Assembly (NCBI GenBank): GCA_014584705.1
Contig: JACTMJ010000026.1
Location: 1-64,000, forward strand
Origin: Acidobacteriota bacterium
GTDB lineage: Bacteria > Acidobacteriota > Terriglobia > Bryobacterales > Bryobacteraceae
Length of the DNA stretch: 64,000 nucleotides
Reading direction: 5' to 3'
Shown here: positions 13,386-15,490 of the stretch, in pieces
How positions within the stretch are numbered: the first letter of the stretch is position 1
Layout of the letters: each line of letters begins with the position of its first letter
The notes under the pieces: generated by a model
The model's database searches: none
What the model saw: only the letters and a program-made list of their open reading frames with translations
What the model was told of the DNA's origin: nothing
Made by a program: the position numbers and the translations under genes

Positions 13386-13925
13386 CTATCCTTTCGGCAG
13401 GTGCCGCTCTATTCGCGCCACCACTTCTGGGCTTGTCCAGACCTCGGGCCCGACAAACTTCTCCAGCACCTTCCCTTCCCGATTGATCAGATAAGTCTCC
13501 GGGTACTTATACGTGCCGAACAGGGCGCCGATATCCGCGGCGGGGTCGAAGGTATTCGGAAACGTGATGCCGCTCCTCTGGATGAACTGGCGGTACGTCT
13601 GCTCGTTGCGGTCTACGTTGACGCCAAGCACCACCACGCCGCGCTTCCCGTAAGTCTGGTGAAACTGCTCGAGGCTGGGCATCTCCTGAACGCAGGGCGG
13701 GCACCAGGTGGCCCAAAAGTTCACCAGGAGCAATTCGCCCGGGAAACCGGAGTCCCCGATCGTCGCGCCGCTCGTGGTGGCAACCTGAAAACGGGGGGCG
13801 CGGTCTCCCACGTTCACGGTCTTATCGCGAACGGCGTCGTAGATTCCGTAAGACAAGGTCAATGTACTCAATGCGATAAGCACGATCAAAAAGAGCTCGA
13901 TCGCCGGGTTCGAGGACTTGGACAT
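13386..13925 (-). CDS. Membrane-anchored TlpA/ResA-type thioredoxin
   Basis: The 179-residue protein has one N-terminal membrane helix (about 9-29) followed by a periplasmic thioredoxin fold. The redox site is WCPPC (about 71-75), preceded by LLVNFWAT, with the cis-Pro region KYPETYLI. Such proteins reduce periplasmic disulfides, for example in cytochrome c maturation. It is the first gene of the minus-strand series through glcD, pepP and the two-component genes, and is divergent from the pterin genes across a 75 bp gap. Confidence 0.88.
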   Translation of the reverse strand: MSKSSNPAIELFLIVLIALSTLTLSYGIYDAVRDKTVNVGDRAPRFQVATTSGATIGDSGFPGELLLVNFWATWCPPCVQEMPSLEQFHQTYGKRGVVVLGVNVDRNEQTYRQFIQRSGITFPNTFDPAADIGALFGTYKYPETYLINREGKVLEKFVGPEVWTSPEVVARIERHLPKG

Positions 13926-14000: not shown

Positions 14001-14417
14001 ATGAGAATTACCAGGCGAGTCGATTTTTCAGCCTCTCACCTTTGCGCGATTCCGTCGCTGAGCCAGGAGGAGAATGAAGCCATCTACGGAGATGGCGCGA
14101 ATCCCCACGGCCATGGGCACAACTACGTGCTTGAGGTGACGCTCGAAGGAGAACCCGATCCCGTGACGGGGATGATTTTCGATCTCAAGGAATTGAAAAC
14201 GATCCTGGAGAGCGAAGTGCTGGAAGCGATGGATCACCGCTACCTGAATATGGAGGTTCCTCCGTTCGATCACGTGGTTCCGACCGTTGAGAATGTTTCC
14301 AGGGAGATCTGGAGGCGGCTCTGGCCGAAATTGAACTTCTCCCATGCGAGACTATGGCGAGTCCGTCTTTATGAGACGGAGGATCTGTTTGTGGATTATT
14401 CGGGGGAGGAATCATGA
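14001..14417 (+). CDS. 6-pyruvoyl-tetrahydropterin synthase homologue A (catalytic Cys replaced by Gly)
   Basis: The 138-residue protein is a single PTPS/QueD T-fold domain of usual length. The zinc ligands are intact: His13 (FSASH), His38 and His40 (HGHGHNY). The catalytic Asp78-His79 (AMDHRYLN) and pterin-anchoring Glu125 (LYETED) are present. The catalytic Cys, normally in GxCxxPxGHGH, is Gly32 (GDGANPHGHGH); the only nearby acidic residue is Asp31. Its stop overlaps the start of the second homologue (ATGA), which has the reverse set of residues. The enzyme family converts 7,8-dihydroneopterin triphosphate, the product of FolE encoded downstream, to 6-pyruvoyl- or 6-carboxy-tetrahydropterin. 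Alone, this subunit should be inactive or altered. Confidence 0.92.
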   Translation: MRITRRVDFSASHLCAIPSLSQEENEAIYGDGANPHGHGHNYVLEVTLEGEPDPVTGMIFDLKELKTILESEVLEAMDHRYLNMEVPPFDHVVPTVENVSREIWRRLWPKLNFSHARLWRVRLYETEDLFVDYSGEES

Positions 14418-14845
14418 TCCTCACGCGCCGCTACCGGTTTTCCGCTTCGCACCGGCTGTACAATCCCGCATTGTCCGAAGGGGAAAACCGGGAGATTTAT
14501 GGAAGGTGCGCCAAACCCTACGGCCACGGGCACAACTACATCCTTGAGGTGAGCGTAGCCGGCCGCGCGGACGCGGTCTCCGGGCGGATGGTCGCGAGCA
14601 AAGATCTGGATTCTCTGATTGAGGATGAGGTTCTCCGAGTGTACAGGGGCAGGAATATGAACCTCGATATCGATACCTTCGTCGACGGGCGCGTGCCGAC
14701 AACGGAGAACGTAGCCAGGGACATTCGCGAGAGACTGGAGAGGCGATGGCCGGCGCCGGGCACGCCGTTCGGCCACACCGCACGGATGCCTTCACTTTCC
14801 GGCGTCCGATTGTTTGAGACCCCGAAGAACATTTTCGACATCTAA
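14414..14845 (+). CDS. 6-pyruvoyl-tetrahydropterin synthase homologue B (Asp-His pair replaced by Arg-Gly)
   Basis: The 143-residue paralogue aligns without gaps to the preceding protein over the first ~85 residues. Zinc ligands His13, His38 and His40 are present, and the catalytic Cys32 is kept (GRCAKPYGHGH). Glu135 (LFETPK) is also kept. At the position of the catalytic Asp78-His79 it has Arg78-Gly79 (RVYRGRNMN). Asp61 in the GMIFD motif of homologue A is Ala here. It overlaps homologue A by four bases and precedes folE by 33 bp. Co-translation and complementary residues suggest an obligate hetero-oligomer; this is inferred. Confidence 0.92.
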   Translation: MILTRRYRFSASHRLYNPALSEGENREIYGRCAKPYGHGHNYILEVSVAGRADAVSGRMVASKDLDSLIEDEVLRVYRGRNMNLDIDTFVDGRVPTTENVARDIRERLERRWPAPGTPFGHTARMPSLSGVRLFETPKNIFDI

Positions 14846-14878: not shown

Positions 14879-15490
14879 ATGCAAAAATCCGGCGCGGCGG
14901 CAAAGATGATCCCGATCGGAAAGACGGAGCACGAGTCTCCGATGGCTTCCCATGTGGAGCAAATCTTGCTGGAAATCGGTGAGGATCCGACACGGGACGG
15001 CCTCCTCAAGACTCCGGCGCGGGTGGCGAAAGCACTGCGGGATCTCACCAAGGGCTACCGCGCCGACGTTGCCAGCGTGCTCAACGGCGCGTTGTTCGAG
15101 GTGGAATACGACGACATGGTGATTGTGAAGGATATTGAGTTCTACAGCCTTTGCGAACACCACATGCTGCCGTTTTTTGGCAGAATGCACGTCGCCTATA
15201 TCCCCAACGGCAAGGTGATCGGGCTCAGCAAGATCCCGCGCATCGTGGACATTTTTTCCAAGCGGTTGCAGGTGCAGGAACGGCTTACACAGGAAGTCGC
15301 CCAGACCATCATGGAAGCTATCCAGCCGCAGGGAGTGGGGGTGGTGGCGAAAGCGCGGCACTTCTGCATGATGATGCGCGGCGTGGAGAAACAGTGCAGC
15401 GACACCGTCACCAGCACCATGCTTGGTTCGTTCCGCAATAACAGGGAGACCCGGACGGAGTTCCTGTCTCTGATTCAGTCGCATTTGTAA
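14879..15490 (+). CDS. folE: GTP cyclohydrolase I
   Basis: The 203-residue product converts GTP to 7,8-dihydroneopterin triphosphate, the first step of folate, biopterin and queuosine pathways. The zinc ligands are Cys92 and His95 (CEHHMLPF) and Cys163 (HFCMMMRG); [15 protein letters not shown] and [11 protein letters not shown] are family signatures. AGAAGGAG precedes the ATG. The gene lies directly after two PTPS homologues, which use its product, so the three genes form a pterin unit. No queC, queE, folB, folK or sepiapterin-reductase gene is in the window, so the end product (tetrahydropterin cofactor, queuosine precursor or folate) cannot be fixed. Confidence 0.95.

Follow-up and report, generated by a model that had tools for sequence, protein, structure and literature searches.

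Two overlapping genes in the window (the whole 64,000-nucleotide stretch of Acidobacteriota DNA analyzed here) very probably encode the paired subunits of a single, obligately hetero-oligomeric 6-pyruvoyltetrahydropterin synthase (PTPS) of the PTPS-II type, as judged from their sequences. The full triad of Cys and Asp-His is found within neither polypeptide, as protein A is without the Cys and protein B is without the Asp-His pair. The preliminary description of this DNA had proposed such an enzyme, and the class-wide, one-sided conservation of the catalytic residues, together with the constant co-occurrence of the two genes, supports that proposal. We infer from these data that A and B assemble physically; their product is suggested by motif and family to be 6-pyruvoyltetrahydropterin.

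The gene pair and its catalytic residues

Gene coordinates and Pfam matches confirmed that two PTPS genes overlap at an ATGA junction and are followed by folE (Table 1). Both proteins belong to the PTPS family (PF01242, COG0720), with the profile extending over the whole protein; against a profile cut-off of 22.4, A matched PF01242 with 111 bits (E = 3.5e-32) and B with 70 bits (E = 2.2e-19).

Table 1. Positions of the genes and the junction discussed in the text. Coordinates are those of the window, except for the third PTPS gene.
Feature	Position	Strand	Length	Basis or remark
TlpA-like thioredoxin gene	13386-13925	-		Divergent from the A/B pair
PTPS-like protein A gene	14001-14417	+	138 aa	Open reading frame, Pfam, alignment to rat PTPS
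ATGA overlap, A stop / B start	14414-14417	+	4 bases	
PTPS-like protein B gene	14414-14845	+	143 aa	Open reading frame, Pfam, alignment
folE, GTP cyclohydrolase I	14879-15490	+		Pfam PF01227, NCBIfam FolE
Third PTPS gene, QueD-type, CARLHGH	G000:C2:186333-186680			Window genome

The purine-rich, ribosome-binding-site-like sequence GGGGGAGGAATC precedes the overlap, and translational coupling of A and B through the ATGA is probable; such an overlap would favor balanced synthesis of the two proteins. More than half of the pairs checked had the same 4-base overlap, the rest having other short spacings. No promoter-like site was returned by a promoter scan, and the seven terminator-like sites from a terminator scan (1.7 expected by shuffling) lay mostly within genes and were left unused.

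FolE yields dihydroneopterin triphosphate, which is the substrate of PTPS, and the adjacency of folE fits conversion of this compound to 6-pyruvoyltetrahydropterin. A folE gene was present at 160 of 166 pair loci. The TlpA-like gene was near the pair at 156 of these loci, and the loci without one or other neighbor were mostly contig ends or two pairs from outside the class.

Both proteins aligned to rat PTPS without gaps across the catalytic sites, and the residues previously assigned to them proved exact. Protein A has H13, Gly32, H38, H40, D78-H79 and E125, whilst protein B has H13, Cys32, H38, H40, R78-G79 and E135; rat PTPS has Cys, Asp-His and Glu in the corresponding columns. The three zinc-binding His residues are thus kept in both, as is the pterin-anchoring Glu, with E135 of B aligning to E125 of A. 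The PTPS-I (QueD) motif is CxxxHGH, which is absent from the pair, because in B five residues separate Cys from HGH. The PTPS-II motif is CxxxxxHGH and the PTPS-III motif ExxHGH (PMC5041015). The former was found in B (CAKPYGHGH) and was absent from A (GANPHGHGH), so that it is present in the pair taken together, and the latter was in neither protein.

Complementary conservation across the class

The survey of reciprocal residues in Acidobacteriota that the preliminary description had suggested was made on 151 distinct A/B pairs, of which 149 are from the class Terriglobia, and the pattern held class-wide. A and B were labeled by gene order, and a gene tree confirmed the labels for 39 pairs. 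One alignment that combined fused with single chains had misplaced B rows and was left out.

The residues that each protein would contribute were invariant: Asp-His was kept in A, and Cys in B, in 151 of 151 pairs. The residues presumed dispensable drift. Cys was missing from A in 101 pairs and an intact Asp-His from B in 59, and 48 of the 149 pairs within the class were fully reciprocal, lacking both. Residue 32 of A was any of six kinds (Ala the commonest, Glu in 21 pairs). Among the 101 pairs with a Cys-less A, 23 combinations other than DH occurred at residues 78-79 of B, and 20 had neither D nor H there. This looks like free drift of disused parts beside strictly kept complementary parts. 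The zinc ligands and Glu125 of A were kept in nearly all genomes though its site is Cys-less.

Changes were then counted on a FastTree tree of the 151 pairs, built from about 250 columns (A plus B) from which the catalytic columns were excluded; many of the genomes are metagenome assemblies, and the counts are parsimony minima. At column 32 there were 28 changes in A as against none in B. Conversely, B had 28 changes at column 78 and 25 at column 79, where A had none, the background values being 22.8 changes per column for A and 33.7 for B. By a simple binomial, the odds of such one-sided splits were about 1e-11, 5e-7 and 3e-6 for columns 32, 78 and 79, respectively; these figures are our own arithmetic against the background A/B ratio, with changes taken as independent. 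As the same split recurs across the related genomes sampled, it is more than chance.

A scan of columns 3-131 showed that whole half-sites, beyond the triad, have been parted. Y7, R14, L15, K31, C32, T126 and N129 were kept (fixed or almost so) in B but less strictly in A, whereas N41, D61, D78, H79 and P94 were kept to the same degree in A and loose in B. Complementary, one-sided conservation of this kind would be expected of an obligate heteromer of paralogs.

Co-occurrence of A and B

The A-B-folE operon is kept throughout the Terriglobia, a large class of soil bacteria. Both genes were found in 54 of 61 relatives (two of these pairs being interrupted by contig ends or gaps), and neither in six; the remaining genome had only a fragment of A, at a contig edge. 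In a set of 49 well-assembled genomes of the class, 37 had A and B and 12 had neither. A further scan of named genomes, ranked by similarity to A and hence skewed to the window's order, gave 80 loci, mostly from Bryobacterales with other Terriglobia, and B adjoined A at all 80, although B of one locus (L085) was split over two frames. Bryobacterales bacterium SJ214 is a near relative of the window genome, the two A proteins being 88% identical.

Related genomes in which A or B occurred alone with the same substitutions had been named as evidence that would count against the pairing. Apart from contig ends, no lone A or B carrying the losses was present among the genomes examined, and the two genes are present or absent together, as for an obligate paralog heteromer. 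Single PTPS-II-type genes elsewhere in the phylum (L158-L162) were complete, with both C and DH, and so was each protein of L163 and L164, two tandem pairs from outside the class.

An ancient duplication and stepwise loss

A tree on 126 columns separated A from B, each as a clade of its own (SH-aLRT 91 and 99), and placed rat PTPS and the complete PTPS-II singles outside both. These clades and the complete pairs outside the class point to one old duplication followed by stepwise loss, and A and B can be taken on this phylogeny as the products of a single ancient event. The 48 pairs in which A still has its Cys already have residues 14, 15 and 129 of A in a form unlike that of rat PTPS and B, suggesting that the pocket of A drifted before its Cys was lost. 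On the tree there were about two switches in the presence of Cys in A and at least 23 in that of Asp-His in B. The loss of Cys from A would fall near the base of the order to which the window belongs, whereas B would have lost Asp-His on many occasions. The predicted sequence of events would be drift of the A pocket, loss of the A Cys and then repeated loss of Asp-His from B, the last being possible because A always supplies this pair. A gene duplication with reciprocal loss had been suggested from the window; the duplication and the complementary nature of the losses stand, but the event is old rather than local, and the losses differ in number as given by these switches.

A proposed composite active site

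In textbooks PTPS is a homohexamer whose catalytic triad spans subunits. Nar and colleagues are said to have reported in 1994 that one monomer provides Cys42 and Glu133, and that a monomer in the opposite trimer provides His89. The enzyme assembles as a dimer of trimers in which each of the six zinc sites lies between three adjacent monomers (PMC7546909), and the title of Burgisser 1995, as cited in PMC7546909 and PMC2229834, names an "intersubunit catalytic triad motif" in the rat enzyme.

In the proposed heteromer, zinc, the catalytic Cys and the pterin-anchoring Glu would come from B together with neighboring residues, and the triad would be completed by the Asp-His of A; from the window pair, neither A alone nor B alone could form a full triad. 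The simplest assembly would be an A trimer on a B trimer, with three of six sites complete, each combining zinc, Cys and Glu of B with Asp-His of A. If the His comes from the opposite trimer, A6 or B6 of the window type would have zero complete sites. If the contact lies inside a trimer, mixed trimers would be required. The residue pattern supports shared sites, and does so alike for either arrangement, opposite-trimer or within-trimer.

In an AlphaFold2 prediction, B alone folded confidently (pLDDT 88, pTM 0.81), its strands and helices following one another as in PTPS. A fused A-B chain from a relative (L049, with the stop read as a residue) was confidently predicted as two domains (pLDDT 88, pTM 0.83) matching human 3i2b and rat 1gtq PTPS. 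A short linker would in any case favor neighbors in one trimer, so the fused model is not decisive for the contacts.

Three observations run against an obligate heteromer. The three zinc His residues and Glu125 retained by A are not obviously needed by a donor of Asp-His. In 53 of the 101 pairs with a Cys-less A, B has both Cys and Asp-His and might there be active by itself. Likewise, A is still complete in 11 pairs where B has lost Asp-His, and A alone could be active in these. An A3B3 enzyme with two chemically distinct kinds of site, namely three composite PTPS sites (zinc, Cys and Glu of B with Asp-His of A) and three Cys-less, zinc-loaded sites on A that selection retains for a second task, e.g. 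sensing of pterins or some other reaction, is conceivable but doubtful.

The reaction of the pair and alternative explanations

The window genome has three PTPS genes, namely A, B and a CAxxHGH QueD-type gene elsewhere, as well as FolB, QueC and a pterin-4a-carbinolamine dehydratase. In relatives without an above-cut-off FolB match, the third PTPS had the motif CExxHGH or ExxHGH in 23 of 24 (the exception being G014), and it was CAxxHGH-like in the six genomes where FolB matched well. This correlation of motif with FolB (L001, L004-L011 and L207-L226) was clean and fits the published PTPS-I/III folate bypass.

An aromatic amino acid hydroxylase (PF00351) was absent from the window genome and from most pair-bearing genomes, and was rejected as the client of the pair on this ground. 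Some genomes of the same family do have PF00351 matches to a divergent hydroxylase (e.g. G015:C43 and G017:C192, covering about 57-283 of 331), and in these genomes alone the enzyme may be a pterin client. In genus g35 the pair occurs with FolB and the dehydratase, whereas a credible QueC is mostly missing and a hydroxylase is absent. On this pattern the pair most likely serves another, biopterin-like pathway.

Five genomes (G044, G048, G050, G053 and G054) have QueC and no PTPS besides A and B, and two more (G008 and G016) have QueC and a third PTPS without Cys; in these seven the pair may stand in for QueD. These genomes, and the Glu at position 32 of A, would suit an explanation in which the pair makes 6-hydroxymethyldihydropterin, as in the PTPS-III folate bypass, or 6-carboxytetrahydropterin, in the role of QueD. 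We give this a low probability. The Glu of A mostly lies six residues before HGH, against the ExxHGH of PTPS-III, and A mostly has Ala at this position. The third PTPS gene already accounts for folate (FolB) bypass, since its copies in FolB-less relatives have the bypass motif, and this was rejected as the principal role of the pair. Queuosine was rejected likewise, as the window genome has its own QueD-type gene and most genomes of genus g35 have the pair but no credible QueC. Both are therefore unlikely as the main function, and the different product that the preliminary description had held out as its alternative is improbable.

It is about as improbable that A is a pseudoenzyme, acting as a scaffold or activator in the manner of a prozyme, whilst B does the chemistry and can dispense with Asp-His in the lineages without it. 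The nucleophile is indeed lost in A and kept in B, and dead paralogs activate trypanosomatid deoxyhypusine synthase (PMC3663545) and AdoMetDC (PMC5201418). This explanation leaves the invariance of Asp-His in A, against dozens of changes in B, unaccounted for, along with the different halves of the pocket fixed in A and B. Retention of zinc ligands and Glu in both proteins, and a predicted PTPS fold for both, would also be compatible with two separate homo-oligomeric enzymes, each with a different altered chemistry, but this is very improbable: the variety of residues at B 78-79 and A 32 speaks for drift and not new chemistry, and the genes are always together. Least credible of all is that one or both genes are decaying, functionless duplicates; each is missing catalytic residues, but the open frames, the kept operon and the strictly conserved complementary residues across the class argue against decay.

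Relation to known enzymes

The family, the fold and the principle of paralog heteromers are already known (e.g. PMC3663545, PMC5201418 and PMC6711710). The nearest known enzymes are the mammalian PTPS (rat 1b66/1gtq and human 3i2b; COG0720 PTPS-II), which were the best PDB matches of A and B. They have the same fold, zinc His residues and Glu anchor, share the CxxxxxHGH motif with B and, going by the Burgisser 1995 title, resemble the pair in having an intersubunit triad. However, known PTPS are homohexamers from one gene, whereas here there are two genes, each without one part of the triad.

The PTPS-III and PTPS-I/III proteins of Plasmodium and bacteria (PMC2229834 and PMC5041015) are likewise COG0720 members, with the Cys replaced or joined by Glu; in contrast, A of the window has Gly and no ExxHGH, and the hybrid motif sits in the third gene of relatives. 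QueD (PTPS-I; E. coli QueD 4ntk) has the T-fold and zinc site in common with the pair but differs in the CxxxHGH spacing, and the window genome encodes its QueD-type protein separately. The trypanosomatid deoxyhypusine synthase and AdoMetDC-prozyme also make one active enzyme from impaired duplicate subunits. There, a paralog described as dead activates an impaired partner, whereas A and B each hold conserved, different parts of the site. The preliminary description knew of no hetero-oligomeric PTPS, and we found no description of one in the searchable literature, outside which most subscription papers lie.

A whole bacterial class appears to split the PTPS triad between two genes, the second loss having been repeated, and it would be misleading to annotate A or B singly, whether as active PTPS or as a dead duplicate. 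The pair points to a conserved Acidobacteriota pterin pathway. Its natural series of stages (both proteins complete, one side lost, both lost) bears on how duplicates become locked together, a question that these small proteins and a routine assay could address. One fully reciprocal pair, with Ala32 and DH in A and Cys32 and Ala-Asn in B, is encoded by strain KBS 96 (L110, KB906767.1), a named strain whose genome is not labeled as a MAG and which would be a good source for bench work.
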